This document shows, piece by piece, positions 12,139-32,852 of a DNA stretch of 64,000 nucleotides (position 1 is the stretch's first letter; each line of letters starts with the position of its first letter). The translations under genes and the position numbers were made by a program. Under the pieces are notes generated by a model. That model was not told where the DNA came from and searched no databases. It saw only the letters and a program-made list of their open reading frames with translations. Source of the DNA: Acidobacteriota bacterium (GTDB lineage: Bacteria > Acidobacteriota > Terriglobia > Terriglobales > Acidobacteriaceae); assembly GCA_021836865.1 (NCBI GenBank), contig JAKBHH010000002.1, positions 1 through 64,000 of the forward strand, given 5' to 3'.

Positions 12139-13219
12139 GAACATCGTACGCATAAAGAGCTGGAATCTAGGCGCCAAAGTGACCGCTGGCGCGGTCGCAT
12201 GGCTTGTCGTTGTCTCAAGCCTGCATTGCTGGCTAAACGTGAACTGGGCGGCCGTTCTTAACAGTTATCGACCGCCTGCCGAACGGAAGATTATCGTCGG
12301 TTACATCCCTGTTACGTGTCAGCTTACCTGCCCGGTCACTGACTACATCTCCAAGTATTCGGAAAGCGGCGAGATGTTTCTTCCGCGAATGTTTCAGGGA
12401 TTCCCGGAGCTGAAGGAAGCGCTCATCGCCAACAAAATCCAGGCAGCGTTCATTGTGGCTCCCATGGCTGTCGCGCTAGCCGCGCAGGGCGTACCCATCA
12501 AGGTTGTCTATCTCGGACATCGCAATGGAAGCGCGGTCGTTGTGCGCGAAGGTGGCCCGATCACCAACTTTGGTCAGTTGCGAGGCAAGATCATTGCCAT
12601 TCCCAGTCGATTCTCCGACGAGCGGCTTCTGCTTTTTCGGGCCATGCAGGCTTATGGAATGAAGCCCGATTCTTTGAAGATGGTCGAGATGGCGCCGCCT
12701 GATGTCGCCGGCGCTCTCCAGGCCAAGGCCATCGACGCATTCGTAATGGGAGAACCGTTTCCTTCGCAGGCCGAAATGGGAGGCTACGGCCGTATCCTGT
12801 TTTACGCCGATAAGTACTGGCCTAACTATATGTCCTGCATTCTGGTAGCCCGGGAAGATCTCATTCAAAATCGGCCGGAAGTGGTACAGCTTCTGGTAGA
12901 TGGCATCGCGCGTTCCGGGCTGTGGCTCGATGCTAGCCGGCCCCACCGTGTCGATGCCGCTGATTTTGTTGGCCGCTTTTATTACAACCAAAAACCAGAG
13001 TTATTGCGCTGGGCGCTGACCAAGCCGATGTCGCGCATCCGATACAACCTGCTCGAGCCGCAGAAGAAAGACTTCGACGAAGTGCGAGACATGATGATCC
13101 AGACTGGGGTACTGAACGTGAAGATCCCGTTCAGTGCCTACACAGACCTCAGGTTCGCTGATCATGCCACGATTGAAACTTCCTGGAAATACGAACCCGG
13201 CGACGCCGTCGCCAAATAG
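12128..13219 (+). CDS. ABC transporter substrate-binding protein (NMT1/NrtA/SsuA-like)
   Basis: KIIVGYIPVTCQLTCPVTDYI...LKEALIANKIQAAFIVAPMAVALAAQGVPIKVVYLGHRNGSAVVV; ATG overlaps the permease stop; N-terminal hydrophobic anchor. Confidence 0.87.
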   Translation: MSLKNIVRIKSWNLGAKVTAGAVAWLVVVSSLHCWLNVNWAAVLNSYRPPAERKIIVGYIPVTCQLTCPVTDYISKYSESGEMFLPRMFQGFPELKEALIANKIQAAFIVAPMAVALAAQGVPIKVVYLGHRNGSAVVVREGGPITNFGQLRGKIIAIPSRFSDERLLLFRAMQAYGMKPDSLKMVEMAPPDVAGALQAKAIDAFVMGEPFPSQAEMGGYGRILFYADKYWPNYMSCILVAREDLIQNRPEVVQLLVDGIARSGLWLDASRPHRVDAADFVGRFYYNQKPELLRWALTKPMSRIRYNLLEPQKKDFDEVRDMMIQTGVLNVKIPFSAYTDLRFADHATIETSWKYEPGDAVAK

Positions 13220-13243
13220 CGCCAGTCGTGCTGAGGAGGACGT

Positions 13244-13582
13244 ATGATTCGTCGCCAATTTATTAAACTCGCCACCCTTACCGGAGCCACAGGCGTCGCG
13301 TCTTTCGGCGCGATTGGAGCCCTGCGCGGAGACTCGGCAACCAACACTGCGCACCCGAAAGACATCGAGACTGTCACATGGCACGTCAAAGGATTCACCT
13401 GCATCACATGTGCCGTCGGTTTGGAAACGATGCTCCGCCAGGAAAAGGGCGTGGTCGCCGCAAGTGCAACTTATCCGCAGGGGGTGGTCACCATCCAATA
13501 TCTTCCGGATCTTGTGAATCAGAATGCGCTTCATTTGGCTATCGCCGACCTCGGCTTCACTGCTGAAAATAAGAAGAGCTGA
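13244..13582 (+). CDS. Tat-exported heavy-metal-associated (HMA) domain protein
   Basis: MIRRQFIKLATLTGATGVASFGAIGAL Tat-like signal, then VKGFTCITCAVGLETMLRQEKGVVAASATYPQGVVTIQY with a CxxC metal-binding-type loop. Confidence 0.8.
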   Translation: MIRRQFIKLATLTGATGVASFGAIGALRGDSATNTAHPKDIETVTWHVKGFTCITCAVGLETMLRQEKGVVAASATYPQGVVTIQYLPDLVNQNALHLAIADLGFTAENKKS

Positions 13583-13662
13583 ACCGGCGACAGTAACCTG
13601 CTGATCACCCGGTTGGCGCCATTTGTTCTCGATCCCCAATCACTCGATAAGGAATTCCACAT

Positions 13663-14421
13663 ATGGATCAGCCTTACCCTCAGCTGGCAGAGGCCCTAAC
13701 TCGCAATCTCCGGCTTGCCCAGGCGCCAGTGGCTGTCTGCTTTCCTGACTCGGTCCCCACGACAGTCCCCGCGCACAAAGGTCGTGTACCTGCCGGATGC
13801 AGCTTCTGGCGGCAGGCAGCTACAGCTCCGGTGTCAACTGCATCGGGCGACCATTCGTGTTGTGCTGTGGGTGTCTACACCCATAACCTCGAATTGTCAG
13901 TGGCAGTGCAGGGTGAACTTCAGGAGTCGCTTGCGGTCTTTGGCAGCCTCGGCTACGTAACCCAGCAGGATCTGCAGCTGATCCCCGTCCTCAACAAGCG
14001 TCCTAAGCACGTTGTTTATGCACCTCTGGCTCAGCCGCCGCTTCCTCCGGAGGTCATTCTTCTCTTCTGTGATGCGAGCCAGGCCTTGATCATCAGCGAA
14101 GCCGTGCAGCAGGTAGAGTTTCGTCATCCTCCTGCTCTTGGTCGTCCCGCCTGCGCGGTAATTCCACAAGTCGCCAACTCCGGCTTTGCTGCGCTAAGCC
14201 TCGGATGCTGCGGGGCACGCGCATATATGGATGCGTTCACCGCCGACGTCGTTCTATGTGCACTGCCCGGAGCGAATCTCGCAGCTTACGTCGAGCGCAT
14301 TGTCGCACTCGCTTCCGCCAATTCTGTCCTGTCCCAGTTCCATAAGCGACGCTGTCAGGACGTCGCGGCCGGTGCGACACCTAGGGTCAAGGAGTCTCTC
14401 GCCGCCATGACTCCACAATGA
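13663..14421 (+). CDS. DUF169 family protein
   Basis: PQLAEALTRNLRLAQAPVAVCFPDSVP...AGCSFWRQA...HSCCAVGVYTHNLEL...GCCGARAYM, the Cys-rich DUF169 pattern. Confidence 0.75.
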   Translation: MDQPYPQLAEALTRNLRLAQAPVAVCFPDSVPTTVPAHKGRVPAGCSFWRQAATAPVSTASGDHSCCAVGVYTHNLELSVAVQGELQESLAVFGSLGYVTQQDLQLIPVLNKRPKHVVYAPLAQPPLPPEVILLFCDASQALIISEAVQQVEFRHPPALGRPACAVIPQVANSGFAALSLGCCGARAYMDAFTADVVLCALPGANLAAYVERIVALASANSVLSQFHKRRCQDVAAGATPRVKESLAAMTPQ

Positions 14422-14598: not shown

Positions 14599-15981
14599 AT
14601 GCCAGGGTCGCTGCTGAGAGAACCTCTCGTAATCGAAACCGATGCTGTTGTGATCGGAGCAGGTCTTTCAGGGCTTGCTGCGGCCACCCATCTCGTGCGC
14701 AACGGTTTTCGGGTCATTTGCGTCGAGCAGCGAAAGGAATTCGGCAAAGTCGTCGGTGAATCCCTAGATTGGTCTGCCCCCGAACTTTTCTCCCATCTGG
14801 GCCTTCCCATGGAAGAGTTGATCTCGACTGAGGTTGCAACGTGGAAGCGCCATCTTACGGTCACGCGCAGTGACGGCTCCAGGAAGGAGTTTCTTCCTGG
14901 AGCATGGCTCGCTGACCCGCCATGGAATGTAGAGATCCGCACCCTGCATCTTGACCGGGATCGGACGGATGCTCGTCTGCGTGAGTTGGCACACCGACTC
15001 GGCGTGTCGATTCTTAATGAACGGGTGGCTGACTTTGCCGTTCTTGATGAGCAGAACCCGCGGGCTCGGCGCATCCTTGGTCTGCGCACTCAAGAAGGTA
15101 CATTCATTCGAGCTTCGTGGTTCGTCGATGCGTCGGGCAGCGATGCGAGCTTGCTTGGCAAGCGGTTCGGCCTCAAATCGTTCGAGTATGGACCCCGCAA
15201 GGTTGCAATCTGGTCGCACCTGCCCACCCAGGAATGGGTGGAAGGAACCAATCTCCATATGGTCTCTTCGCCCGGGGTATATATGGAGTGGATCTGGGAA
15301 ATTCCAATCCGGCCTGGTGTAAGCAGCATTGGATACGTCGCTCCTGGGTCGAGTGTGAAGGCACAACGCGCGATGGGACTAGGAACCCAGGACATCTTCG
15401 TGCGTCAATGCAGGAGTTTTCCGCGCTTGCAGAAGGCCTTTGATCAAGATCCGATGCAGGAGGTTGCGACGGCCTCATTTCTTTGTCGCACCTACGAAGG
15501 TGTTTGCGGAACTAACTGGGTCATCATCGGAGAAGCTGCTTCCCAGTCCGATCCAATCACCGGTAACGGCGTGACAGCTGCCCTTCGGCACGCTGAGGAA
15601 GCGATCGCTCTAATCCGTCACTATCGGCATCGCGGCACCATCTCATTTGCAGCACGAGCAATTTACAACCTGCGTGTCAAAGCGGTTGGTCTTTACTTTA
15701 ACAGCCTGATCGAAAAGCTTTTCTATCAACCCGTATTGCGTGACCGGCTGGGTCTGTTTGGCACAGCACGAGTCTACACAGTCCCGGCTTGGCTGACGAA
15801 CCTCTTCTATACGCGCATCCGGCCTAGTCGCTCTCTCTTGAGGACGTTGATCATTTGTTCGCTGATGGCTGCGGTTCGCGTGATGACGTGGGGCGAATAT
15901 CACATCGGTGCGTTCTTCTTTGGAATGAGTGCATCGCGCCAACAGGCGAATCCAGTGGAGGGACAGATCTATGCGATGTAA
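14599..15981 (+). CDS. FAD-dependent oxidoreductase / flavin-dependent halogenase-like protein
   Basis: GAGLSG Rossmann motif, KVVGESLDWSAPELFSHLGL, WIWEIP (WxWxIP) at 15289-15306, FVDASGSDASLLGKRFG, GEAASQSDPITGNGVTAALRHAEEA. Confidence 0.78.
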   Translation: MPGSLLREPLVIETDAVVIGAGLSGLAAATHLVRNGFRVICVEQRKEFGKVVGESLDWSAPELFSHLGLPMEELISTEVATWKRHLTVTRSDGSRKEFLPGAWLADPPWNVEIRTLHLDRDRTDARLRELAHRLGVSILNERVADFAVLDEQNPRARRILGLRTQEGTFIRASWFVDASGSDASLLGKRFGLKSFEYGPRKVAIWSHLPTQEWVEGTNLHMVSSPGVYMEWIWEIPIRPGVSSIGYVAPGSSVKAQRAMGLGTQDIFVRQCRSFPRLQKAFDQDPMQEVATASFLCRTYEGVCGTNWVIIGEAASQSDPITGNGVTAALRHAEEAIALIRHYRHRGTISFAARAIYNLRVKAVGLYFNSLIEKLFYQPVLRDRLGLFGTARVYTVPAWLTNLFYTRIRPSRSLLRTLIICSLMAAVRVMTWGEYHIGAFFFGMSASRQQANPVEGQIYAM

Positions 15982-17008
15982 TTCGCGCGGCAAAGGCGAA
16001 TCGATTCTGTTCATTCACGGCATGCCTACCAACGGGTATCTTTGGGATGATGTTGTGCGCGATCTCGCGCCTCATTTCCGATGCTTCGTCGTCGATCTAC
16101 CTGGCATGGGGGGAACCCCTTTCTTGCCCTATAGCCCTGCCTACTTCGCACAGGTTGCAGCGCAGATTGAACAAGTGAGAATACGCAATCGCGTGCGACA
16201 CTGGCATGTCGTCGGCCATGATGGCGGGTGCGCAATCGCGATCCAATACGCACACCTGTTTCCAATGCGTGTCAATTGCATGGCGCTGCTTTCGCCTGCA
16301 ATATTCCCTGATCTAAAGCCGTTCTTTCTTCTCGATCTGTTGCGCAAGCCTATTGTTGGGGAGATTACTGCTCCACTCGTTCACGCTCTCTTTTGGAAAG
16401 TAGCCATGCGCCGAGCCCTCCCCCACACTGGGCACAGATTTGAGTTCCATAAGACGTTTTCGGGCGCGACTGGTCCCTGGAAGCTCATGCGTGTGGTGCG
16501 TTGGGGTAGGCCAGACATTCTTTTCCGGGATTCCGCTTCGGTCCTTCAAAGCCTCAATCGACCGACGTTGGTCATCCATGGCTCTCGGGACATCCTGCCG
16601 AGTTCGTTCGCACTTCGCGCGGCAGATATGATCAAAGACTCGGAATTGATCGAATTGGATTCGGGTCACTTCATTCCAATCGAGCGAGCCACTGACGTAT
16701 CCCTGAAACTACTGGCGCACTTCGGATCGCGCGGCACGAAAATGGTGGTTGACTCTCCCGTCAACAAGCGAATTCTTTCGGAGATCCGTATTGACGCGGC
16801 CGGCTCGATCTCGGTTGCCGCGACACAATCGGGCTCAGGCAAGACTCCCGCTATGAAGACGGAGCCGATTGAGAGCACTCCCCGTCCACGAACTGTGATT
16901 CCCACCATTGCGGAGCGGCCCTCAACTTTCGATGGAGGCCCACAGGGGACCTGGACCAGCAAGTCCACAAGCATTTCGAGGAGAACTCCAAATCTATGCC
17001 CCATATAG
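15971..17008 (+). CDS. Alpha/beta hydrolase with Asp nucleophile elbow (haloalkane dehalogenase/epoxide hydrolase-like)
   Basis: ILFIHGMPTNGYLWDDV...FVVDLPGMGGT...HVVGHDGGCAIAIQYA; long low-complexity C-terminal tail overlapping the next gene. Confidence 0.8.
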   Translation: MRCNSRGKGESILFIHGMPTNGYLWDDVVRDLAPHFRCFVVDLPGMGGTPFLPYSPAYFAQVAAQIEQVRIRNRVRHWHVVGHDGGCAIAIQYAHLFPMRVNCMALLSPAIFPDLKPFFLLDLLRKPIVGEITAPLVHALFWKVAMRRALPHTGHRFEFHKTFSGATGPWKLMRVVRWGRPDILFRDSASVLQSLNRPTLVIHGSRDILPSSFALRAADMIKDSELIELDSGHFIPIERATDVSLKLLAHFGSRGTKMVVDSPVNKRILSEIRIDAAGSISVAATQSGSGKTPAMKTEPIESTPRPRTVIPTIAERPSTFDGGPQGTWTSKSTSISRRTPNLCPI

Positions 17009-17568
17009 CCCTACCGGAAAACCAGCCTGGAATTCGCGGTGCGATGGCATTTCGTCCAGAAACTGCCAAGCCCCTGAACGATCTTGTTGAAGTCCTTTTG
17101 CGAGGTCAGAACAGCCTCTCGCCAGGTGAGCGCGAACTGATCGCAACCTACGTCTCTTATCTGAACGATTGTCATTACTGCCAGTCGATTCACGGGGCCA
17201 TTGCCGCGGCCCATCTGGATGGTGACGAAGAACTGGTGCTCCGGGTCAAGGCAGATTTTCAATATGCCGACATTTCGGAAAAGCTGAAAGCTTTGCTCGT
17301 AATCGCCAGCAAAGTGCAGCGGGATGGCAAGCTGGTAACAGCTGAAGATGTGGGGAAGGCGCGCAGCCTGGGCGCGACCGACATTGAAATCCACGACGCC
17401 GTTCTGATTGCGGCGGCGTTTTGCATGTACAACCGCTACGTGGATGGGCTGGCAACCGTGCAACCGCGCGACGAGGCTATGTATCGGGAGCGCGGCAAGA
17501 TGGTGGCGCGCGACGGGTATGTCAGAATCAGCAAAACGTATCTGCCGGCCGAGCCGGTGGAACGCTGA
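16996..17568 (+). CDS. Carboxymuconolactone decarboxylase/AhpD-like peroxidase-related protein (1)
   Basis: LSPGERELIATYVSYLNDCHYCQSIHGAIAAAHL, CxxC AhpD-like motif. Confidence 0.85.
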   Translation: MPHIALPENQPGIRGAMAFRPETAKPLNDLVEVLLRGQNSLSPGERELIATYVSYLNDCHYCQSIHGAIAAAHLDGDEELVLRVKADFQYADISEKLKALLVIASKVQRDGKLVTAEDVGKARSLGATDIEIHDAVLIAAAFCMYNRYVDGLATVQPRDEAMYRERGKMVARDGYVRISKTYLPAEPVER

Positions 17569-17577
17569 GGGAGCACT

Positions 17578-18120
17578 ATGGCGCATATCGAACTTCCTGC
17601 AGGTCTGCCCGGCATTAGCGGCGGCTTTGCCTTTCGTCCGGAGACGGCCAAGCCGATGCGCGAGCTGGCGCATGTGCTGCTGCACGAGCCCAACAGCCTC
17701 ACGCCTGGCGAGCGCGAATTAATCGCTGCGTACGTTTCGTCGCAGAACGATTGCTATTTTTGCCAAACCAGCCACGGCGCGGCCGCAGCATGTCATCTGG
17801 GCGGCGAGGACGTGGTGAGGCGAGTGAAGACGGATTTCGAAAACGCACCCGTCTCACCGAAGCTGAAAGCCCTGCTGGCTATTGCGGGAAGGGTGCAGCG
17901 CGATGGGAAGCTTGTCACCTCTGAAGAGGTGGAGCGGGCGCGGCGCGAAGGTGCCTCCGATGTGGAGATTCACGATACAGTGCTCATCGCCGCAGCGTTC
18001 TGCATGTACAACCGCTATGTAGACGGCCTCGACACGTGGCAACCGCGCGATGCCGGCATGTATGTCCAGATGGGACAGCACCTGGCCGAGCATGGGTATC
18101 TGAAATCGTCGCAAAGATAG
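17578..18120 (+). CDS. Carboxymuconolactone decarboxylase/AhpD-like peroxidase-related protein (2), tandem paralog
   Basis: LTPGERELIAAYVSSQNDCYFCQTSHGAAAACHL; collinear similarity to 16996-17568. Confidence 0.85.
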   Translation: MAHIELPAGLPGISGGFAFRPETAKPMRELAHVLLHEPNSLTPGERELIAAYVSSQNDCYFCQTSHGAAAACHLGGEDVVRRVKTDFENAPVSPKLKALLAIAGRVQRDGKLVTSEEVERARREGASDVEIHDTVLIAAAFCMYNRYVDGLDTWQPRDAGMYVQMGQHLAEHGYLKSSQR

Positions 18121-18406: not shown

Positions 18407-21400
18407 TTGTGCGCGCATGCGTCATGGCCATTGATGTCTACAGGGTGTCACGCGAACCACGAAGGCACTCTGTTTGTAATGCAACATCTTCCGGGAGAGG
18501 TCGAAAACAACATGAACATGGTTCGCAATGTGCTGGCATTTGTAGCACTTTCTTGCCTCAGCTTGTCTGCTCAGCAGATCACGGGAAACATTCGCGGTAC
18601 CGTTACTGACCCGAGCGGTGCTGTCATCCGGGGCGCTGCGGTTACAGCACGGCATGCGGAAACGGGCCTGTCGCGCACAACCACCACCGACCACAACGGC
18701 AACTACGTTCTTCTGGAACTCCCGGTCGGACACTACCGCCTGCAAACCTTGGCGAAAGGTTTCCAGGAATACGTGCAGGAAGGCATCACGCTCAACGTGA
18801 ACGAGACGGCTTCAGTGTCACCACGACTCGCGGTCGGATCGGAAAACGAGCAGGTGCTAGTGTCCGCCGATGCGAAGCTGATTGAGCCAACCGTCACCAG
18901 CTTGGGCAAGGTAGTGCAACAGCAAGAGTTGGTAGATCTGCCGCTGAACGGGCGCATTTTTTCACAACTTGGGCTGTTGCAGCCGGGAGTCGTCCCTTTG
19001 ACGCCTGGGATAGCCGAAGCGGGTGGATCGCTGCGCAGCGGACAGGCTTATGCGGTCAATGGCCAGCGACCCGAATCAAACAATTTTCTGATCGACGGCG
19101 CGAACAACTTCAACGGAATCGACGGCGGATTCGTGCTGAAACCTCCGGTGGACGCGATCGCCGAGTTCCGCATCATCACGCTTAACGCGAATGCAGAGTT
19201 CGGAAATGCGTTAGGATCCACGACGAACATCATCACGCGGTCGGGTACGAACCATGTTCACGGGACCTTATGGGAGTTCCTGCGCAACGATGCAGTTGAT
19301 GCCAACAATTATTTCGCGCTGACGAAGGAGCCGCTGAAGCAAAACCAGTTTGGCGCCACGGTCGGAGGACCGATCAAAAAGGATAAGACGTTCGTTTTCG
19401 GCTACTATGAAGGCTTCCGCAATCGCCAGGGCGAGACAGCACTGACCACAGTGCCATCGGTAAGGGAGCGTACCGGCGACTTCTCCGAGCTCTGCCCAGA
19501 GGGCTTCACGGCCGGCTTCTGCAACAACCCGGCGCACCAGCTTTTCAACGTCTTCGCCAATGCGCCGTACCCCAATAACCAGGTGCCGCAGACCCAATTT
19601 AATGCGGTGTCACAAAACCTGCTGAGCTTCTTCCCGCTTCCGAACGCCGGTACAAATCTGTTCTCCACCACGCAAACCTTAAGCAACAATACGGATCAGT
19701 TCGGCATCAAGATCGACCATTACCTCAATCCACGCGACACGCTGAACTTCCGGTACATGTTCAACCAGCTCTCCCAGGTCGATCCGCTATCGCCCGGCGG
19801 CGCTAGCGTGCCTGGCTTCCCGGTAGGCGAAGACCAGCGCGCGCAGAACTTTGTGGCGGAAGAAACACACGTCTTTTCGCCCACTCTCATCGCTGTGGCG
19901 CGATTCTCGTTCCTGCGCAACAAATTCCTCTTCGGGGAGCACGAGAACCATCAGTCGCCGTCAAGCCTTGGATTTCAATACCAGCCGAGTCTCGCTATCG
20001 CTGCTGGACCTCCATTCATTCAGGTGAATGGCTATTCTACGGTTGGCGATCCGATTACCGGCCCACGCAATACCTACGAAAACGTCTTCGATTACTCCGG
20101 ATCGCTGAGTTGGGTGCGCAGCAAGCACGAGCTGAAATTCGGCGGCGGATACCAGCATCAGCAGATCAACGTGCTGCAAGGCATCGCCACAAATGGCTTT
20201 TTCGTGTTCGTGCCATTCCCGGTAACGGACGCATTCGCCAGCTTCCTCGTCGGGCAACCCATCGTCTTCCTGCAGGGCATCGGCGATTTCTCGCGTGGTA
20301 TTCGCGGCAACAATGCGAACTGGTACGTACAGGATACTTACAAGGTCTCGTCGCGCTTCACAATCAATGCCGGATTGCGTTACGAGCTGCCCCAACCGTA
20401 CACCGAAATCCATAACCGCATGTCATTGTTCGAGCCCGGGAAGAAGTCTCAGGTCTTGCCCAATGCGCCGGCGGGGTTGCTGTATCCGGGCGATCCAGGT
20501 GTGCCTGCCGGCCTCATTCCAACCGACATGAAGGCATTTGCGCCGCGCGTCGGCATCGCGTGGGATCCGAGTGGTCATGGCAATTCGCTGATCACTTCGT
20601 CGTACGGCATTTTCTATGAGCCCTACTACACCGGACAAGGTGGGCCTTTGCAGGCGCCGATCAGCGCGCCACCATACCTGGGTACGCCGCAGGTGACCCT
20701 ACCGAACTTCGCCAATCCATTCAACGGCAATCCTCCGGCCGTCGGAACGTTCTCCACCCCACTCACAAACCTGACTCTGTCGCCGACGTTGACGCTCCCT
20801 TACACGCAGGACTGGGACTTGAACCTTGAGCACTCGTTCGGATCCAATTTGCATTTCGAGATCGGATACGTGGGCACGAAGGGCACGCATCTGCCGCGCT
20901 TTATCGAAGCCAACCCGGCAGTATTCGTTCCTGGATACGTTAATGGCCAGCCGATTTCAAATTCCAGCAATGCCGATCAGCGGCGGCTTTATTCCGGCTG
21001 CACGCTGGCTGATCCGCCGAGTAGTTGCCTGTTTTCATCGACCGGCGAAATCGCGGGCATCGCCAACTCCGCATACAACGCGATGGAGGCGTCGCTGCGC
21101 AAGCGGTTCAGCCACGGGCTGTCATTCCTCCTCTCGTACACGTGGTCGAAAACGATCGACGATGTTTCGTCGTTCAACATCACCGGATCGGAAGCGAAGC
21201 CTGTAGCAGGCGAAAACGATCTCGCCCAAGATCCGTTTAATCTTGCAGCAGAGCGTGGGCTTTCGCTGTTCGATGCGCGCAACCGATTTGTCGGGAGCTA
21301 TGAATGGGCGCTTCCGTTCTGGAGCCATGCGCAGAACTGGTACCAGTCCGCGTTGGGGGGATGGCAGTTGGATGGAATCGCCACGCTGATGAGCGGCACG

Positions 21401-21823
21401 CCCTTCACGGTCTTCGACTCGAATGACGTTGCGGCGCAAGGCAGCGCGCCGGAGATCACGGGATTCTCCGCGCAGCGGCCCAATCTGGTCGGCAATTCTA
21501 ATAACGGGCCGCGCGCGGTTAACGCGTGGCTCAACACCAGCGCTTTCCAGCGACTCGATCCCGTAGCGAACGCGGGGCAGTTTGGCACGGAAGGACGCAA
21601 CGTGAATATCGGCCCTGCGTATGCTGATTGGGATTTTGCCGCGCTCAAGAACTTCAACGTGACTGAATCAAAGCAACTCCAATTCCGCGCGGAGCTGTTT
21701 GACTTTCTGAACCGCACGAATTTCCGTCTGCCCGACAGCGATATCAGCTCGCCGACGTTCAACCATATCCTTGAAGCGGAGGCTCCGCGCCAGGTGCAGT
21801 TCGCGTTGAAGTTCATGTATTAG
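18407..21823 (+). CDS. TonB-dependent receptor, Oar-like with N-terminal carboxypeptidase-regulatory domain
   Basis: ITGNIRGTVTDPSGAVIRGAAVTARHAETGLSRTTTTDHNGNYVLLELPVGHYRL; plug-like LPLNGRIFSQL; FDARNRFVGSYEWALPF; C-terminal FLNRTNFRLP...RQVQFALKFMY. True start probably ~18512 (MNMVRNVL). Confidence 0.88.
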   Translation: MCAHASWPLMSTGCHANHEGTLFVMQHLPGEVENNMNMVRNVLAFVALSCLSLSAQQITGNIRGTVTDPSGAVIRGAAVTARHAETGLSRTTTTDHNGNYVLLELPVGHYRLQTLAKGFQEYVQEGITLNVNETASVSPRLAVGSENEQVLVSADAKLIEPTVTSLGKVVQQQELVDLPLNGRIFSQLGLLQPGVVPLTPGIAEAGGSLRSGQAYAVNGQRPESNNFLIDGANNFNGIDGGFVLKPPVDAIAEFRIITLNANAEFGNALGSTTNIITRSGTNHVHGTLWEFLRNDAVDANNYFALTKEPLKQNQFGATVGGPIKKDKTFVFGYYEGFRNRQGETALTTVPSVRERTGDFSELCPEGFTAGFCNNPAHQLFNVFANAPYPNNQVPQTQFNAVSQNLLSFFPLPNAGTNLFSTTQTLSNNTDQFGIKIDHYLNPRDTLNFRYMFNQLSQVDPLSPGGASVPGFPVGEDQRAQNFVAEETHVFSPTLIAVARFSFLRNKFLFGEHENHQSPSSLGFQYQPSLAIAAGPPFIQVNGYSTVGDPITGPRNTYENVFDYSGSLSWVRSKHELKFGGGYQHQQINVLQGIATNGFFVFVPFPVTDAFASFLVGQPIVFLQGIGDFSRGIRGNNANWYVQDTYKVSSRFTINAGLRYELPQPYTEIHNRMSLFEPGKKSQVLPNAPAGLLYPGDPGVPAGLIPTDMKAFAPRVGIAWDPSGHGNSLITSSYGIFYEPYYTGQGGPLQAPISAPPYLGTPQVTLPNFANPFNGNPPAVGTFSTPLTNLTLSPTLTLPYTQDWDLNLEHSFGSNLHFEIGYVGTKGTHLPRFIEANPAVFVPGYVNGQPISNSSNADQRRLYSGCTLADPPSSCLFSSTGEIAGIANSAYNAMEASLRKRFSHGLSFLLSYTWSKTIDDVSSFNITGSEAKPVAGENDLAQDPFNLAAERGLSLFDARNRFVGSYEWALPFWSHAQNWYQSALGGWQLDGIATLMSGTPFTVFDSNDVAAQGSAPEITGFSAQRPNLVGNSNNGPRAVNAWLNTSAFQRLDPVANAGQFGTEGRNVNIGPAYADWDFAALKNFNVTESKQLQFRAELFDFLNRTNFRLPDSDISSPTFNHILEAEAPRQVQFALKFMY

Positions 21824-21849: not shown

Positions 21850-22473
21850 ATGTTTGCAGACAACGGCGCGGCAATGGCTTGCGCAAAGCTTAGAGTAGCG
21901 CCTTCCTCCACGAATCTGCCCCTGGCGGATGAGCGCACAGCCAACGCCGAGGTCAGGGCATTGTTCGCCGATTACCGCGAGCGGTTTGCCCGGCCCGATC
22001 TTCCGGGGATTGTGCTGTGCTTCGCCACCAACTATGTCCTGCTCAAAGGAATGATGCAGATCGCCGAGGGCCTGCTATTCGGCGAGAGCCTATTGAGCCG
22101 TCGGCACAAGGAGATGATGGCTACGTATGTCTCGCAGCAGAATGCATGCCAATACTGCGCCGATAGCCACGCAGCATTCCTTCGCGTGCACGGTGGATCG
22201 GCTGAAATGCTCCGCGCCCTCCACCACGCGGACTTGGATTCCGACCTCTTTACCGAGTCGGAACTGGCTCTACTGAAACTCGCCGCAAAGGTAAACGCAA
22301 ATTCTCCCCCTGTCACCCGCTCTGATGTGGAAGCAGCCATGCAAGCCGGATGGACGGAAGCGCAAATTGCCGAAGCCGTCCACGTTGTATCCCTGTTTGC
22401 GGCGTTCAATCGCATCGCCAATGGCTTCGGGATTTCATCCCCGTACCCCGGGGGCATGGGAGGCCACCTATGA
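21850..22473 (+). CDS. Carboxymuconolactone decarboxylase/AhpD-like protein (3)
   Basis: LLSRRHKEMMATYVSQQNACQYCADSHAAFLRVHG with CxxC. Confidence 0.82.
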   Translation: MFADNGAAMACAKLRVAPSSTNLPLADERTANAEVRALFADYRERFARPDLPGIVLCFATNYVLLKGMMQIAEGLLFGESLLSRRHKEMMATYVSQQNACQYCADSHAAFLRVHGGSAEMLRALHHADLDSDLFTESELALLKLAAKVNANSPPVTRSDVEAAMQAGWTEAQIAEAVHVVSLFAAFNRIANGFGISSPYPGGMGGHL

Positions 22474-23462
22474 CTGAGGTTTTGAATCCGCGGCGGCCAA
22501 AGCGCGGAACCTGGAAGCCTCAGCCGGAAACCGTCGCACTTGTGCGCGTTTCCGGCAACTCAATCAACGGTGTCGGGGAGACCACGTCTCGCCGCCCATC
22601 TCCATTCTTCTGGCATCCTCCGGATCAGCATCCGTGGGGCGACTTGCAGCTCCTGGCGCGAAAGAACTCACGCAAATGCCCCGGTTCGATGGAGGCATTT
22701 CAGGGTGCCTACACCTATCCCGAGCTGATCCCTGTTGCTGCAAACCGCAACGCGTCTTCTGCTGAAGAGCTTTCCGAAGCGGCAAAGCGTTTCGGTCTGA
22801 CGCACGAGGCGGATGATATCGGGATGGCCGCGATGCATACGCATTATGTGTATCAGGGCTACACTATCGAACATCCGTGGGTCATCATCCTCGCTCTGGC
22901 GCATGACTACGAGCGCCTCCGCGAGGTTCCTTCCGATGAAACCAATGGTATCGGTGTTTGTGATGTGGGCGATCAATATGCCAGGGGTACAAGGGTCTCT
23001 TATGCGCTGGCCAACTGGATTCGTTCGCAGGGCTATGACGCCGATCCGTACCCGGGGCCGATGGCCAGTGCGCTGCTGCTCATTCCGCCTGCAATTGCCG
23101 CCGGGCTCGGCGAACTCGGCAAGCACGGATCGCTCATTAGCCCGCGCTTCGGAGCAGGTGTCCGGCTAGCTGGTGTAACGACGGACATGCCCCTTGTTGC
23201 CACTTCGCCCGTTCAGTTCGGCGCCGATGAGTTTTGCGCAAGCTGCGAGGTGTGCACGCAGGCATGCCCACCCGGCGCCATCACACCGCAGAAGCAGATG
23301 GTGCGCGGCGTCGAGAAATGGTATGTGAATTTTGACAAATGCATACCCTATTTCGCCGAAGCTGCATCCTGCGGCATCTGCATCGCAGAGTGTCCATGGA
23401 CGCGCCCGTCGGTGCGGCCAAAGCTGCTCACTACCATGGCTCGACGGATCGGTAAAGAATGA
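22470..23462 (+). CDS. Reductive dehalogenase-like protein with two [4Fe-4S] motifs, no Tat signal
   Basis: FGAGVRLAGVTTDMPL...FCASCEVCTQACPPGAI...WYVNFDKCIPYFAEAASCGICIAECPW resembles the RdhA C-terminal region; ATGA overlap with the preceding CMD gene. Confidence 0.7.
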   Translation: MTEVLNPRRPKRGTWKPQPETVALVRVSGNSINGVGETTSRRPSPFFWHPPDQHPWGDLQLLARKNSRKCPGSMEAFQGAYTYPELIPVAANRNASSAEELSEAAKRFGLTHEADDIGMAAMHTHYVYQGYTIEHPWVIILALAHDYERLREVPSDETNGIGVCDVGDQYARGTRVSYALANWIRSQGYDADPYPGPMASALLLIPPAIAAGLGELGKHGSLISPRFGAGVRLAGVTTDMPLVATSPVQFGADEFCASCEVCTQACPPGAITPQKQMVRGVEKWYVNFDKCIPYFAEAASCGICIAECPWTRPSVRPKLLTTMARRIGKE

Positions 23463-24760
23463 AGACGGCGCTCCAGAATTCAGACGAAGAGAACTCGATC
23501 AGCTATCCAGGATGGGGCGTTCTCGCGGCCGCCTGCACCGGCGTGATGGTGAGTTTCGCTCCCATTGTTCCGTACACGTTTGGCCTGTTCCTCGATCCGC
23601 TGCATGCGGCGTTTGGTTGGAAGCGAGAGGCGATGGGCGGAGCATTCGCACTGGCTGCCATTACGGTGGCGCTTGTCTCGCCCCTCATCGGCATCTTGCT
23701 CGATCGATATCCCCCACGACGTATCATCCTTCCCGGGATTTTGGTTTTCGCCGCCGGACTTGCCACGCTCAGCCGCTTGACGCCGAATATCGTTCAGTTC
23801 TACCTTACATTTTTTGTGATCGGCTTAGTCGCAAACGCCACAGCGCAATTCGCCTACACGCGCACCGTTCTTACCTGGTTCACAACCCACAGAGGAGTTG
23901 CCCTCGCACTTATGCTTACCGGCAGCGGTATTGGCTCCATCCTGATTCCACCGCTCACCCAGTGGATGATTCAACATCACGGATGGCGCAGCGGCTTTTT
24001 ATTGTTGGGAGGTATCGCCCTGCTAGGCCTGCCGCTTTCTGCCCTCCTCGTGCGTAATCGGCCGGAAGCTGCGATCGTCCGCGCCGAACACCACGCTGAC
24101 AGGGGAATGACCGTCCGTGCGGCGATGCGGACCACCGCATTCTGGATCCTCGCCGTCATCACCATCCTCTCCGCATTCAGCGAAAACGGCCTGGTCACCA
24201 ACCTCGCCCCCATGCTCACTCAACATGGCTTGCTTGCAGCCACTGCCGCGCTCGCTCTTTCAGTCCGCGGGGGAGCAGGAATCCTCGGCCGGCTCGGCAT
24301 CGGCCTTGCCATCGATCGGGTCTCGCCGGAGCGTATCCAGACACTTGTTCTGGCCTTGGCGGCCGCGGGGACGCTCATTCTCGCTTTTGCTGATAGCGCA
24401 TGGACAGCTCTGTTGGGGGCGGCGGTTCTGGGAGTCGGACTCGGTAGCGAAGCCGACGTAGGACCTTACTTGCTTGCGCGCTATTTCGGCCGCCGGCATT
24501 TCTCAGTGTTGTACGGCCTTACCTGGACCGCTTATGCCATCGGGGGCGCCACTGGTCCGCTCTGGATCGGGCACTTGTATGATCGCGCCGGTACGTATCT
24601 GCCGCAATTCATCGTTTATCTTTCGGTTGTGGCGTTTGGAGCGGTAATTCTCAGCTTTTTCCTGCAATCCGCCCGAGAGAGTAGGAAGTCTGCGCCAGAA
24701 GTGACAGTTAACGCAGACATGCAGCTCGAAGGTCAGGAACTGGAAGCCGACTCGGCTTGA
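23459..24760 (+). CDS. MFS transporter (MCT/OFA-like)
   Basis: ~12 hydrophobic segments; YTFGLFLDPLHAAFGWKREAMGGAF; LVSPLIGILLDRYPPRRIILPG; starts by ATGA overlap with the RdhA-like gene. Confidence 0.85.
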   Translation: MKTALQNSDEENSISYPGWGVLAAACTGVMVSFAPIVPYTFGLFLDPLHAAFGWKREAMGGAFALAAITVALVSPLIGILLDRYPPRRIILPGILVFAAGLATLSRLTPNIVQFYLTFFVIGLVANATAQFAYTRTVLTWFTTHRGVALALMLTGSGIGSILIPPLTQWMIQHHGWRSGFLLLGGIALLGLPLSALLVRNRPEAAIVRAEHHADRGMTVRAAMRTTAFWILAVITILSAFSENGLVTNLAPMLTQHGLLAATAALALSVRGGAGILGRLGIGLAIDRVSPERIQTLVLALAAAGTLILAFADSAWTALLGAAVLGVGLGSEADVGPYLLARYFGRRHFSVLYGLTWTAYAIGGATGPLWIGHLYDRAGTYLPQFIVYLSVVAFGAVILSFFLQSARESRKSAPEVTVNADMQLEGQELEADSA

Positions 24761-25118: not shown

Positions 25119-27290
25119 TTATTGGGAGAGCACGCATCCCATTCTTGGCCGTGGAAAAACTACGACGCATTCCTCGCCGGTTTGACGGATCGTGATTTCG
25201 AGATCTGTCGGATAAATGATCTCGGCAGGCTTCGTGGCTCGCAAACGAACTTCCGCATCTCCGTCGATTCGCCACACCGCGAGAAAGGAGCGCTTCGGCG
25301 ATCGTATGCCGAGCGCGATGGGCTTCATGGCGTTTGTGACATTGGGCATGCCGAGTGGATAGAACGGCACCGCATCCGGAATATGTTCGCGGATGATCTC
25401 CTTGTAGACGCGGATGCCTTCTTTTACCTGATACGCGGCCGGGGCATCGAGGCGTGCCTGATGCCCGCTCTGATGGATGCGCAGAAGCATGGCCGAGACC
25501 ATGTTGAAGCTCGCCTGATCTGCATCTGCCCCTTGACGAGGATAGGACCAGACGGCAAGTTGGGAGGGGACTACTCCTGCGGATGCGCCTGTCGCGATTG
25601 CGGGAAGGCGTAAATACTCTTCCTGATCGGTGCAGGACTGGAGCTGCGTGTGAGAGAGCATGCCGTAATCCATCCGACCGCCCCCGCTTCCGCAGTTTTC
25701 GATGACGAGTTCCGGATAGCGATCGAGAAGACCATCGAGCCAGCTGAGAACAGCGCGGTTGTGTTCGAGCAGACCCTGGCCCGGACTGTCGGAATTCAGG
25801 CTGGTGCCTTCCAGCGTGTCGGTGTTGTAGTCCATCTTGATGTAGCCAACGCCGTAGTCGGTTACCAGCCTTTCGACGACACGATTGAGATAGCTCCGCA
25901 CTTCGGGGTTACGAAAGTCGAGAAGAAGACGAGAGTTCTTAATGACTCGCCTGCCGTGCCGCATGAAGAACCAGCTATCGGGCTTCTTCGCAAGCGGGGA
26001 GTGTTTGCCTGCTACTTCCGGCTCCAGCCACAGACCCGGAACCATTCCCTTTTCGCGAATCTTATCGAGCACGTAGCGGATGCCGTGCGGCCATCGCGTC
26101 TTCGATGGTTGCCAGGCCCCGACTGTCGATGACCAGTCCTCGTTTTGCTCTGCGTACCATCCGGCGTCGATCACAAAATACTCGCATCCGGCTTGAGCGG
26201 CAGCATCGATGAGAGGCAGCTCCTTCTCTTCGGTTGGATCGCCCCAGAGACAATTCATGTAGTCGTTGAAAATGACAGGACAAGTGAGATGCTGCGGTGG
26301 CCGCTTCCGCACGCAGATCTGCTCTCTGTATCTGGTCAGCTCCTGCGCGGCCTCCTGGAATCCGCCCTGGACGCAGCCGATCGCAACTGGGACCGTCTTG
26401 TAGGTCTCGCCGGGTTCCAGATTTTTCCACGCCTGGGAGTGGAGTTGATCGGGGCCTCCAAGATAGGCATAAACGTCGGAGGCGCGAATGCCTCTCTCCG
26501 CAAAATTCTACACATCCCAGTACCACGACCCATTGTGTTCGATCTGCCAAAACCACGCAACACCGAGTCTGACGTTTTCGACAATTGCCATGGGAAGATA
26601 CTTTTCCGTTGACCAGCTTCCGACGCTCGCGGCCGACGCCTGCGACCAGCTTGTGCGCATGTTCTCCACGAAGCCGAGCTCAGATGGCCGAAAACTATGC
26701 CACTGTCCTTCAGCCATCCAACTGTTGTATGCGAGCCAGACTTGCAGTTCGCGATCATAGTGGACTGGATCTGACAGGGCGTGGAGCATGGCCGAACTGA
26801 GGTACTCGATTCCGACCGTCCCTTTGCCTGTATTTCTGATCTCAACATGGTGCCGCACGACCGGCAGACCTTCGAATGCTTCGTAGTGGGATTCAAGATC
26901 CAGATGCAGGTCGGAATCTGTCTGCCGCAACACGAGAGTCCTCCCTCGCTCGCTTTGCTGCTCGTCCTTTGCTACAAACGTCATGCGCTGCCCGGGCGAT
27001 CCGGCGGACTGCTTCATTCCGGAATCCGGCGAATCTTCTCCGCTGCACAGAAGCGCTGACTCTACGCCCGCCCACTCTGAGGATTTGTTAGGAGGCTCGA
27101 CATCAACGGGCAGGAATAGATGCTGTCTGAGCCGCCCATCCACAACGGAAAACTCAAACTTCAGTTGACCGCTATTCCATGACAATCGCTCCGCGGATTC
27201 CGGTCCCGCAGCAGCGCCGGATGCGGAGGTGGAAAACACGGCGCTGACACCTGCGGCGCCCGACGAAATGAGAAACTTACGACGATTCAT
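25119..27290 (-). pseudogene. Alpha-galactosidase (GH36-like) interrupted by one in-frame TAG
   Basis: ORFs 26508..27308 and 25119..26312 are in the same frame. Translation runs ...HNGSWYWDV*NFAERGIRASDVYAYLGGPDQLHSQAWKNLEPGETYKTVPVAIG...HLTCPVIFNDYMNCLWGD; GWYAEQNEDW...GLWLEPE, YIKMDYNTD and ENCGSGGGRMD are GH36-type motifs. Tat-like N-terminus MNRRKFLISS. Confidence 0.85.
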
Positions 27291-27332
27291 GAGTTCATCC
27301 GTGTGCAAGAAATGAATGAGATTCGTATGCTC

Positions 27333-29165
27333 TCACGACAGACTCAGTTTGAGAGCCGCTGCGTAGTCCACCTTCGGGCGATAGTTCTTGGGAAGTGCCA
27401 CGCGAAGAGTGTCTGGGGTCTGCTTCCAGTCAACGCTTGCGCTGGTTCCCAAGAGCTCAACACGCGCGATCTTGCCGGGGCTGGTCGCCGCTGACAATCC
27501 CAGCGAACGCATGAGAATGGGCTCCGCGGGCCAACCAAGCACAATGGCATAGATAACGTTGTTCGCCTTGTTGCGAGTAAAGCGAATGTCTTTATCGCCC
27601 AGCTTATTGACGCTCTCGCCCTGAAACGAACCGGCCTTGACCATATTGGGGCCTTCCCCGGAGATCTTCCACGGCCGCGTCTCATAGATGGCCTCGCCGT
27701 TGACCTCCATCCACGAGGTTATGCCGTCCAGCACCGCGATCTCTTTGCTGTCGATTGTTCCGTCGGGTTTTCCGGGCACATTCAGGATGAACGTGCCGTT
27801 CTTGCTCACGGTATCGATGAGCCAGTGAATCACTTCTCTTGGATGTTGATAGCCGCCATACTCGCCCGGCTTCTCATACAGGAAGCGCAGGTAGTGCCAC
27901 GCGCCGATGCAGGTTTCGGACTGCCAGGGATACTTCATGATGTCAGCGGTCAAGCCGCGTTCATAGTCGGCAACCACTGCTTTCACAAGCCGGTCCGGAA
28001 CGTCCTTGACGTTCAGGATTGCATCCATCTTGCCGCCGTTCCTCTTCAGGCTGTTGTTGTAGAAGTACGCACCGATATTCATGCCGGCCCAGCCGAGCGG
28101 AAGAAGCGAGTCATCGAAGTAGAGAAGGTCGGGATTGTGCTGGTCAATCAGATCGCGCGTTCGGTCGTAGAAGTTCTTTACGTAGGAAACATCCGGTAGC
28201 GCGTCGCCTGGATGTTTCACGCAGTAGAGACGCTGCGGATCGAGCCCCTGCCACCACTGTTCCTTGCCCTGCGCTTCAGTAAGAGCGCCATCGTATGGAA
28301 CGCCGGCCAGCGGTCCTGATTTGTCGGCGCCATGCGAGGGCTGAAACCACCACCAATTGCGAGCTTGATGCACAGTGACGCCGAATCGCAATCCCTGCTT
28401 TCGCGCTACAGTGGCCCAGGCGCCGACCACATCGCGGTGCGGACCTATGGCTGAGGAATTCCAGGGGTGATGCTTTGAGTCCCATGCGTCGAAATTGCAA
28501 TGATGATTGGCGAGCGCCACGAAGATCCTCGCGCCTGCCTTCTTGTAGCGTGCGATCAACTCGTCGGGGTCCCAATTCAATAGCGTCCACTGCGCGCAAA
28601 GGTCCTTGTATCCGAAACGCGATGCCGGTCCGTAATGATCGAGGTGATACTTGTACTGCTTTTGCCCCTCGACGTAGAGATTGCGTGCGTACCAGTCCCC
28701 GTCTTCCGCCACGCACTGCGGACTCCAATGCGCCCAAATCCCGAATTTCGCGTCGCGGTACCACTCCGGCGCTTCGTACTCGAGCAGTGAATCCCACACC
28801 GGTTTGAAGGGACCGTCTCCGGCAAGATTGGGAATCGGCGATTCCAGTGGCACGTCGTCCCACATACCCCCAGCGATCCGCGACGGGGCCGGGCTATAGT
28901 TCCAGGCCGGCTGTTGCCAGTTGGCCTCGTCCAGCTTTGTCGGGACGATCTTGCCATCGCTCACCTTGTAGAAGACTCGCCTTTCCGGAGGCAAGGCGCA
29001 GAACGCGGCGTAGTCCTGGGTGTACCGGTTGAATCCTTCCGGCAATTCGGGGTGATCGCTGGACGAGCTTTGGGCATACGACGGAATCCCCGCCGATGCG
29101 GCTGTCATTGCAAGAAACTTGCAGAAATTTCTTCGCTCCATACGCTCCGGTTTCGCTCCTCGCAA
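27333..29165 (-). CDS. Alpha-L-fucosidase (GH29-like), exported
   Basis: EWYRDAKFGIWAHWSPQCVAEDGDWYARNLY...YKDLCAQWTLLNWDPDELIARYKKAGARIFVALANHHCNFDAWDSKHHPWNS...DLLYFDDSLLPLGW. Confidence 0.87.
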   Translation of the reverse strand: MRGAKPERMERRNFCKFLAMTAASAGIPSYAQSSSSDHPELPEGFNRYTQDYAAFCALPPERRVFYKVSDGKIVPTKLDEANWQQPAWNYSPAPSRIAGGMWDDVPLESPIPNLAGDGPFKPVWDSLLEYEAPEWYRDAKFGIWAHWSPQCVAEDGDWYARNLYVEGQKQYKYHLDHYGPASRFGYKDLCAQWTLLNWDPDELIARYKKAGARIFVALANHHCNFDAWDSKHHPWNSSAIGPHRDVVGAWATVARKQGLRFGVTVHQARNWWWFQPSHGADKSGPLAGVPYDGALTEAQGKEQWWQGLDPQRLYCVKHPGDALPDVSYVKNFYDRTRDLIDQHNPDLLYFDDSLLPLGWAGMNIGAYFYNNSLKRNGGKMDAILNVKDVPDRLVKAVVADYERGLTADIMKYPWQSETCIGAWHYLRFLYEKPGEYGGYQHPREVIHWLIDTVSKNGTFILNVPGKPDGTIDSKEIAVLDGITSWMEVNGEAIYETRPWKISGEGPNMVKAGSFQGESVNKLGDKDIRFTRNKANNVIYAIVLGWPAEPILMRSLGLSAATSPGKIARVELLGTSASVDWKQTPDTLRVALPKNYRPKVDYAAALKLSLS

Positions 29166-29237
29166 TCCTGATCAGCGCGGCTATACGCCGGCTTTTGAGC
29201 GGGGCCGCTTCCCTCGGAGGCTGGCCCCGGCATTTCG

Positions 29238-30452
<1,215 letters not shown>

Positions 30453-30476
30453 CTATGGGTAAAGGTTTTCGTGGCT

Positions 30477-30570
30477 ACCTCGTGGATTTGAAAAACGAGA
30501 GCACTCGAAATAGTACACGAGGTGGCCTGTTAACATAAACCGATTTATTAGGTTGTCCTGTATACCTCGT
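30477..30570. promoter_or_regulatory. Divergent intergenic region with three ACCTCGT half-sites (two direct, one inverted)
   Basis: ACCTCGT at 30477-30483 (+) and 30564-30570 (+); ACGAGGT (reverse complement) within CACGAGGT at 30516-30523. The region separates the minus-strand CE1/GH29/GH36 block from the plus-strand GH51/CE1/GH3 block. Confidence 0.4.
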
Positions 30571-30641
30571 CCATTGTATATTCATGTGGTTTCGATTTTG
30601 AAAGCCTTGGATGCGCTCCAGAAAAGGCGGACTCCTGGAGT

Positions 30642-32852
30642 TTGCGGAAAGCGTTTGCCCATGGCGTTGGGGGAAGCATGTCTCATTCGTCTCTTGCTGT
30701 TGGTTCAAGGGGATTTGCTCCTGGGTTGAACCGCTCGGTTGCTGCAATGTGCCGCGCTTATACGAACTCTGCGGCTGCACTGATTGTTGCAGGATTGCTG
30801 TCTTTGCCGGCGTTCTCTCAGCAGCATCCGGTAACCGCTACGATCGACGCATCGAAGACGTACGCGCCTATTTCCAAGAATATTTACGGCCAGTTTCTTG
30901 AGCACGGCGGCGACATCGTCAACAGCGGTGTCTGGTCAGAAATGCTCGTCGACCGCAAGTTTTACTATCCCGTCGGCTCCAGTGCACCCACTCCTCCGCC
31001 GGTGATTGCAAACGCTGGAGGCAATCCACGGTTTCGGCGGACTCCGACGCGCTGGTGGGCGCCCGTGGGCGGCGACTCCGTCGTCACGATGGATACAACG
31101 TCGCCATACGCGGGTGATCACACTCCGCTCGTGAAGCTGGACGCGAAGGAAGCGCATGGGTTGAGCGAGTCCGGGATCGCTGTTCGGAAAGGCAAGGCCT
31201 ACACCGGGCGGATTGTCCTGGCGGGCAGCCCACGCGCAGTCGTGAAGGTCGCGCTCATATGGGGAAAGGACGCTCGTGACCGCCAGGTGATCACAATCCA
31301 TCCGCTCGGACCGGTCTACAGGAAATTTCCGCTGCACTTTACCGCGGCCGCCGATAGCGACGGGGCGACGCTTGAGATCACGGGCACTGGCACGGGCTCA
31401 TTCCATGTAGGGGCGGTCTCGTTGATGCCTGCGGATAACATCGACGGATTCCGTCCCGAGGTAATTGCCGCGCTCAAGCAACTGCGTTTTGGCGTGCTGC
31501 GGTTTCCGGGCGGAAACTTCGTTTCCTCCTACGAATGGCGCTATGCCGTTGGAGACATCGACAAGCGGCCGCCTATCTTCGATCCGGTCTGGTCGGCGGT
31601 GCAGCCAAACGATGTAGGCACCGATGAGTTTCTCGCGCTCTGCAGCCTGCTTGGCGTCGATCCCTACATCACGGTGAACGCGGGCTTCGGCGATGCGTGG
31701 TCGGCGCGCGAACTGGTCGAATATACCAATGGCGCGTCCACAACGCCGATGGGCAAGTGGCGTGCGGAAAATGGCCACCCTGCGGCGTATGGCGTCAAGT
31801 TCTGGGGCATAGGCAATGAGCCGTGGGGCAACTACCAGATGGGCGCCATGTCGCTTCCGCAGTTCGAGCTCAAACACAATCTCTTCGCCAAAGAGATGCG
31901 CAAGGTTGATCCGTCCATCAAGCTCATTGCGGGTGGCGCGATGCCCGATGTGATGGAGGGCGCAGATCAGTCCCGTCGCATCAACGGGCAGTATGTGCCT
32001 GACTATCTCTCTTCGGCCGACTGGACAGGCCAGTTGCTGCTGAACTGCCTCGACAACATCGATATGGTCAGCGAGCACTACTATGCCTCGGGCACAGAGC
32101 ACACCGATATGAAGCTGCAGAAGAAGGTACCTATCGATCCGCCACTTTCGTTCATCGAGTGGCAGCGTGCCCCGGCCGTGCAGGTTCGCGCGAAGTATGA
32201 ACACTATCAGGAATACCTGAAGAGGATCCCCGCGCTGCGTGCTAAGCCGGTCCCGATCGCCATTGATGAGTGGGCCTACTTCGGCGGCGGTCCAAACTCC
32301 TACAAGACCGTTCCGGCCTACGCGTGGGCATTCCACGAGATGTTCCGGCATTCTGACGTGTTTCAGATGGGCGCATTTACCTTCGCGACGGCGATGATGA
32401 GCGAGACTCGGACCGACGCCATTCTCAATCCCACCGGGATGCTGTTCAAGATGTACCGCGATCACTTCGGCACGATTCCCGTCGAGGTCACAGGGGACTC
32501 TCCGCAACCGAACCCTGCATTTCCGGCTGGAGGCGATCAGCCCGCAGTCAATCCCGGCAGCCCGACCTATCCGCTCGATGTCGTCGCGGCATTCAGCGAA
32601 GATCGCAAAGCGCTCACCATCGCCGTGCTCAACCCGTCGGACTCCGAGCAGAGGATCAAGCTCACAATCAACGGAACGAAACTCGCAAATGCCGGGAAGC
32701 TGTGGCGCATGGCTCCGGACAAGATCGATGCAACGGTGCAGGTGGGCAAGGCACCCGAGGTGCAGGTCGAGGGCCAGTCGCTCGGCTCTCTGCCGGATAC
32801 TGTTACCGTGCGCCCCTTCAGTGTGAACATTTACTCCTACCCGGTGCAGTAG
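30642..32852 (+). CDS. Alpha-L-arabinofuranosidase (GH51-like), exported
   Basis: IYGQFLEHGGDIVNSGVWSEMLVDRKF; LRFPGGNFVSSYEWR; KFWGIGNEPWGNYQMG; VPIAIDEWAYFGG. Probable start ~30747 (MCRAYTNSAAALIVAGLLSLPAFSQQ). Confidence 0.9.
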   Translation: MRKAFAHGVGGSMSHSSLAVGSRGFAPGLNRSVAAMCRAYTNSAAALIVAGLLSLPAFSQQHPVTATIDASKTYAPISKNIYGQFLEHGGDIVNSGVWSEMLVDRKFYYPVGSSAPTPPPVIANAGGNPRFRRTPTRWWAPVGGDSVVTMDTTSPYAGDHTPLVKLDAKEAHGLSESGIAVRKGKAYTGRIVLAGSPRAVVKVALIWGKDARDRQVITIHPLGPVYRKFPLHFTAAADSDGATLEITGTGTGSFHVGAVSLMPADNIDGFRPEVIAALKQLRFGVLRFPGGNFVSSYEWRYAVGDIDKRPPIFDPVWSAVQPNDVGTDEFLALCSLLGVDPYITVNAGFGDAWSARELVEYTNGASTTPMGKWRAENGHPAAYGVKFWGIGNEPWGNYQMGAMSLPQFELKHNLFAKEMRKVDPSIKLIAGGAMPDVMEGADQSRRINGQYVPDYLSSADWTGQLLLNCLDNIDMVSEHYYASGTEHTDMKLQKKVPIDPPLSFIEWQRAPAVQVRAKYEHYQEYLKRIPALRAKPVPIAIDEWAYFGGGPNSYKTVPAYAWAFHEMFRHSDVFQMGAFTFATAMMSETRTDAILNPTGMLFKMYRDHFGTIPVEVTGDSPQPNPAFPAGGDQPAVNPGSPTYPLDVVAAFSEDRKALTIAVLNPSDSEQRIKLTINGTKLANAGKLWRMAPDKIDATVQVGKAPEVQVEGQSLGSLPDTVTVRPFSVNIYSYPVQ

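Follow-up and report, generated by a model that had tools for sequence, protein, structure and literature searches.

Gene content of the rdh locus

Within the window (the whole 64,000-nucleotide stretch of DNA analysed here), a forward-strand open reading frame that starts with an ATG at 22470 and ends with its stop at 23462 encodes a 330 aa protein, rdh, which we assign as a putative short RdhA-like corrinoid/[4Fe-4S] reductase on the basis of the reading frame itself, profile searches, PDB matches, a structural model and a tree. Towards the N-terminus lies a clade signature, SGN.INGxGE (residues 28–37; 22551–22580), in which S28, G29, N30, I32, G34 and E37 are near-invariant across the clade alignment, and further along the same strand are the codons of Tyr170 (22977–22979) and Arg232 (23163–23165), the latter within the stretch RFGAGVRLAGVTTDMPL (residues 226–242). 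The original prediction had noted two complete Cys motifs in the C-terminal arrangement of RdhA, and these are indeed present on the forward strand: a first [4Fe-4S] motif, CX2CX2CX3CP (CASCEVCTQACP, C256–P267; 23235–23270), and a second set, CX9CX2CX3CP (C291–P309; 23340–23396), which reads CIPYFAEAASCGICIAECPW from C291 through C308 to W310. Both are conserved among the aligned relatives, and this conservation rules out a chance Cys motif.

What the prediction had reported as missing is missing. The rdh N-terminus has neither a twin-Arg (Tat) signal nor a hydrophobic stretch (the top 19-residue Kyte–Doolittle mean, for windows within the first 60 residues, is 0.37), no small 2-TM ORF resembling RdhB occurs between 18000 and 27000 of the window, and the 330 aa protein contains no fused reductase domain. 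With neither Tat signal nor RdhB, a respiratory RdhA is ruled out. The duplicated cobalamin-binding domain of proteins of ~700 aa or more is likewise absent, rdh being a single domain, and neither a ferredoxin nor a reductase is encoded next to it.

The genes on either side of rdh, all on the forward strand, are tightly packed. Upstream is a gene for a CMD/AhpD-family protein (21850–22473) that matches the peroxidase-related model TIGR01926 and has the CxxCxxxH motif carried by CMD proteins of the acidobacterial loci; downstream is an MFS carrier of the monocarboxylate/oxalate–formate type (23459–24760). Each overlaps rdh by 4 bp (ATGA), so the proposed coupling to both genes stands, with the amendment that the CMD gene is AhpD/peroxidase-related rather than a proven carboxymuconolactone decarboxylase. 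A gap of 26 bp separates the CMD gene from the preceding gene for an outer-membrane beta-barrel receptor with a CarboxypepD_reg N-domain (18407–21823). Two further CMD/AhpD-family genes (16996–17568 and 17578–18120) lie on the other side of the receptor gene, such that three paralogues flank it, and the cmd–cmd–barrel–cmd order is seen again in loci L002–L005.

Further upstream are genes for a flavin-dependent halogenase-like FAD protein (14599–15981) and an alpha/beta-hydrolase (15971–17008, its start set by comparison with L005). The FAD protein aligns with PltA, CmlS and Bmp2 and retains the WxWxIP motif, as well as a Lys aligned with a Lys of Bmp2, which we take to be the catalytic Lys of halogenases. 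The hydrolase has a nucleophile elbow, GHDGG, whose Asp is invariant (GHD[GA]G), a feature of both haloalkane dehalogenases and epoxide hydrolases. Beyond this set, a gene for a sulfonate/taurine-type ABC substrate-binding protein and a DUF169 gene occupy 12074–14421, upstream of the FAD gene, and the region after the MFS gene (25119–32852) contains glycoside hydrolases (a melibiase and an alpha-L-fucosidase by Pfam, and a putative arabinofuranosidase-like ORF).

A distinct clade of the RdhA family

The rdh protein matches the reductive dehalogenase model TIGR02486 with an E-value of 1.6e-32 and 113.7 bits, under the curated cut-off of 160.35 bits, and PF13486 with 12.4 bits against a cut-off of 24.3, these cut-offs being annotation thresholds and not biological features. 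At the level of sequence, the relationship to TIGR02486 is significant despite the sub-threshold score: the model matches all 26 aligned clade members at 1e-10 or better, while PF13486 at 1e-3 matches none of the 26. Scores below the cut-offs of curated models mean that the clade is easily overlooked as RdhA. Among PDB sequences, rdh matched NpRdhA (4RAS, E 1.5e-26) and PceA (4UQU, E 1.6e-24), with QueG far weaker, and the QueG model TIGR00276 gave a weak 39.8 bits (cut-off 200 bits).

Structure and phylogeny point the same way. An AlphaFold2 model of rdh built from 26 sequences (pLDDT 90.8, pTM 0.90) predicts the corrinoid-type RdhA fold with the confidence that the original prediction had asked of it, and Foldseek searches with this model placed PceA and NpRdhA at the top (E ~1e-17 to 1e-19, TMq 0.57–0.73) and QueG much lower (TMq 0.41–0.45). 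Two trees were built, a quick one of 74 core domains and a careful one of 51 from which long branches were left out. In both, the short rdh proteins form a single clade nested among RdhA; in the careful tree this clade has 100/100 support and a long stem (0.92), NpRdhA-type enzymes form a separate clade (100/100) with which rdh does not group, and QueG is the outgroup, again at 100/100. Besides Acidobacteriaceae, the rdh clade takes in alpha- and gammaproteobacteria as well as a group belonging to a different acidobacterial family.

The active-site residues are consistent with this placement. Alignment with NpRdhA pairs Y426 with Tyr170, K488 with Arg232 and R552 with Phe295, and the PceA equivalents of the first two are Y246 and R305; the catalytic Tyr and Lys/Arg that were to be looked for are thus both in place. 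All RdhA groups share Tyr170 with QueG, whereas the column of Arg232 holds Arg or Lys in every RdhA group (Lys in the NpRdhA type) and Phe or Leu in QueG. Because QueG also has the Tyr, it is Arg232 and not Tyr170 that is diagnostic. Roles for Y426, K488 and R552 of NpRdhA, the last in substrate binding, have been described (PMC10463259); with Phe at the position of R552, substrate binding by rdh therefore probably differs, while the catalytic residues are kept. Residues Lys218–His219 are invariant in the rdh clade, as in QueG, where other RdhAs have Arg.

The original prediction of a cytoplasmic branch of the RdhA family is thus upheld by a fully supported clade inside RdhA, the fold of a confident model, and retention of the Tyr/Arg pair and cluster motifs; the placement in QueG that would have spoken against it was not found. 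We conclude that the rdh clade is a real, conserved and new subfamily of RdhA.

Distribution and linkage across genomes

A sample of 398 genomes from the same family contained rdh in 37, at 68–100% identity. Named acidobacterial isolates of Edaphobacter, Granulicella, Acidipila and Silvibacterium have it too. Relatives in alpha- and gammaproteobacteria are 40–47% identical, and a clade member (E 1e-60) occurs in 18 of 289 alphaproteobacterial genomes. Broken or split copies were seen at L024 and L039 and in genomes G163, G553 (contig C1) and G103 (contig C37). A distribution as patchy as this is in keeping with an accessory catabolic trait, and cultures of the isolates would allow a possible natural-organohalide step in acid soils to be put to the test. 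The proteobacterial relatives have no conserved operon partner, mostly standing alone in unrelated contexts. Two proteobacterial bins (G397 and G398; L079–L087) each contain 8 to 12 RdhA-family matches, several of the short type, also in unrelated contexts.

In the acidobacterial loci, rdh is repeatedly accompanied by genes for the barrel receptor, the MFS carrier and CMD proteins. Across the 398 genomes, and in tests that ignore phylogeny, rdh and orthologues of the MFS gene tend to occur together (Fisher p 4e-18), 22 of the MFS copies being within 10 kb of rdh; the same holds for orthologues of the CMD gene (p 2e-8; 10 within 10 kb). Of the 37 rdh-positive genomes, 15 have the FAD halogenase-like gene, against 5 of 43 rdh-negative genomes picked by hand (p 0.003, likewise without regard to phylogeny), and in eight genomes this gene is no more than 10 kb from rdh. 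Together with the adjacent alpha/beta hydrolase it is near rdh in the window and at L005, L011, L013 and L024, although both genes are absent near most rdh copies. That a halogenase-like flavoprotein and a hydrolase with an Asp nucleophile are linked to rdh tilts the reading towards halogen chemistry. On the plasmid pANY103b of Aminobacter (L067, 6021–6629), a ‘peroxidase-related’ CMD-family gene, which matches the acidobacterial CMD profile with 65 bits, comes after the gene for a self-sufficient RdhA, giving an independent RdhA–CMD pairing.

Genomes with the barrel and MFS genes and no rdh were read for a step that might replace it: one set was adjacent to pca genes, one to genes of sugar-acid type, and the others were uninformative. 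G592, which lacks rdh, has the pair with an MFS 79% identical; some 2 kb away are an IclR-type regulator and a protocatechuate (pca) set in which PcaF, PcaH and PcaG score above NCBIfam cut-offs and a PcaB-like protein just below. This proximity suggests aromatic acids for the carrier. In G663, the barrel–CMD–MFS set adjoins dehydratase/aldolase genes, and the transport set is therefore not tied to a single pathway; at L148 the same set is next to sugar-acid-type genes. At L149 (5527–17891), the barrel and MFS pair of a genome without rdh stands beside pca genes and a MetE-like gene.

Proposed function and alternatives

We consider it somewhat probable that rdh is a cytoplasmic, non-respiratory reductive dehalogenase that uses external redox partners and acts on an imported, probably aromatic, organohalide. 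The scheme we infer for its corrinoid, activity, substrate class and electron donor builds on an established family membership, fold, set of conserved residues and genomic linkage, and runs as follows. The outer-membrane barrel and the MFS carrier would let in an organohalide, for which a halogenated phenolic or aromatic acid is the likeliest candidate. Within the cytoplasm, electrons from an external ferredoxin/flavodoxin system would pass via the two [4Fe-4S] clusters to a corrinoid bound by the nitroreductase-like domain, reducing it to Co(I). Reduction of the carbon–halogen bond would then release halide, with Tyr170 as proton donor and Arg232 assisting, by analogy with characterized RdhAs, and the CMD/AhpD proteins (plus the halogenase-like flavoprotein and the Asp-nucleophile hydrolase where present) may process the same compound class. 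Dependence on B12 is plausible from the fold and from the presence of MetH and a separate QueG, the latter above its cut-off, in the same genome, both of which hint that the cell makes use of cobalamin enzymes. Several findings weigh against the scheme: Phe295 in place of the NpRdhA substrate residue Arg552, the QueG-like Lys218–His219, the absence of halogenase-like and hydrolase genes near most rdh copies, the mostly solitary proteobacterial relatives, the lack of an adjoining ferredoxin or reductase gene, and the occurrence of the barrel–CMD–MFS set beside sugar-acid-type genes at L148.

As the original prediction had suggested, the same fold and cofactors might instead serve a non-halogenated substrate, with an ether, hydroxyl, epoxide or other leaving group, which we regard as a minority possibility. 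QueG itself reduces an epoxide, and the rdh clade shares Lys218–His219 with QueG and not with RdhA; its long stem, the replacement of NpRdhA Arg552 by Phe295, the variable proteobacterial contexts and a hydrolase that could also be of the epoxide type fit as well. Yet the basic Arg232 of RdhA is kept where QueG has none, the halogenase-like gene is linked to rdh, and the lack of any RdhA-type enzyme with a non-halide substrate in the literature searched also counts against this reading. That rdh is a QueG-like, tRNA-modifying epoxyqueuosine reductase has next to no chance of being right, for all its similar length and weak TIGR00276 match: QueG identity is ruled out by the tree, in which QueG is the outgroup, by residues including Arg232, and by the separate QueG in the genome, and is further at odds with the lower fold similarity and the accessory distribution of rdh.

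The halogenase-like gene, with its WxWxIP motif and aligned Lys, could also belong to a biosynthetic cluster in which this enzyme adds a halogen and rdh or a CMD protein takes one off (cryptic halogenation), as the CMD homologue Bmp8 removes bromine (PMC7918430). We think this unlikely, given that an uptake-like receptor and MFS carrier recur with rdh, that the cluster showed no biosynthetic genes such as those for a carrier protein or a synthase, and that most rdh copies have no halogenase-like gene nearby. The broken copies in some genomes might suggest an orphan redox or corrinoid protein with neither dehalogenase nor related catalysis, e.g. a paralogue that is decaying or acts like a chaperone. 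We hold this to be very improbable, because the Cys ligands, Y170 and R232 are strongly conserved across phyla.

A bolder reading, which we offer tentatively and hold to be less likely than not, is that this minimal, single-domain cytoplasmic subfamily of soil acidobacteria and proteobacteria, combining a QueG-like Lys–His with an RdhA-like Arg, applies Co(I) chemistry to a class of substrate different from the ortho-halophenols of known catabolic RdhAs, possibly one with a non-halide leaving group.

Relationship to known systems

In the scheme of Fisher et al. (PMC10463259), RdhA comprises a respiratory, a transmembrane and two catabolic subfamilies, and every catabolic enzyme tested is stated to be active on ortho-halogenated phenols. 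Activity has been demonstrated for RdhAs that lack a signal (NpRdhA, JtRdhA, Ros_A3X954), so the absence of a signal is not in itself new. In the literature searched we found no report of RdhA in Acidobacteriaceae, and a forest-soil survey recorded only pceA-like reductive dehalogenase genes; the rdh clade, its minimal form and the acidobacterial gene set appear to be undescribed there.

NpRdhA of Nitratireductor pacificus (4RAS/6ZXU), from the subfamily without a reductase domain, resembles rdh in being cytoplasmic, with no Tat signal, two [4Fe-4S] sites, a Tyr plus basic residue and, presumably for rdh too, an external electron supply. It differs in its ~700 aa and duplicated cobalamin domain, in K488 and R552 (Arg232 and Phe295 in rdh), and in falling in a separate clade. 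The self-sufficient catabolic enzymes BhbA and JtRdhA share the catalytic core and an aerobic-type catabolic context, but at ~1070 aa have both a duplicated domain and a fused phthalate-dioxygenase-reductase domain (PMC10463259), neither of which occurs in rdh. Ros_A3X954 (Roseobacter sp. MED193) and A0A2T7UTL8 (Pararhodobacter) likewise lack signal and reductase domain and fit the core and cluster motifs into a similarly short span, with activity shown on 2,6-dibromophenol, a substrate of Ros_A3X954, and on triiodophenol (PMC13101508). By published motifs, however, Ros_A3X954 (CDICTKCADACP and CAICMRVCP) resembles L094 of another clade and not the rdh clade.

Respiratory PceA has the same fold, Tyr, Arg305 equivalent and two clusters, and differs in its Tat signal and RdhB anchor, whereas QueG shares the corrinoid/[4Fe-4S] fold, the Tyr column and Lys–His at 218–219 but has no basic residue at column 232, stands outside RdhA and is encoded by its own copy elsewhere in the genome. 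The neighbours of rdh, as judged from sequence, belong to the same broad families as the CMD-family debrominase Bmp8 and the halogenases Bmp2 and PltA. Set beside these systems, a 330 aa enzyme that dispenses with signal, anchor, second domain and reductase fusion would also give experimenters the RdhA core in minimal form.
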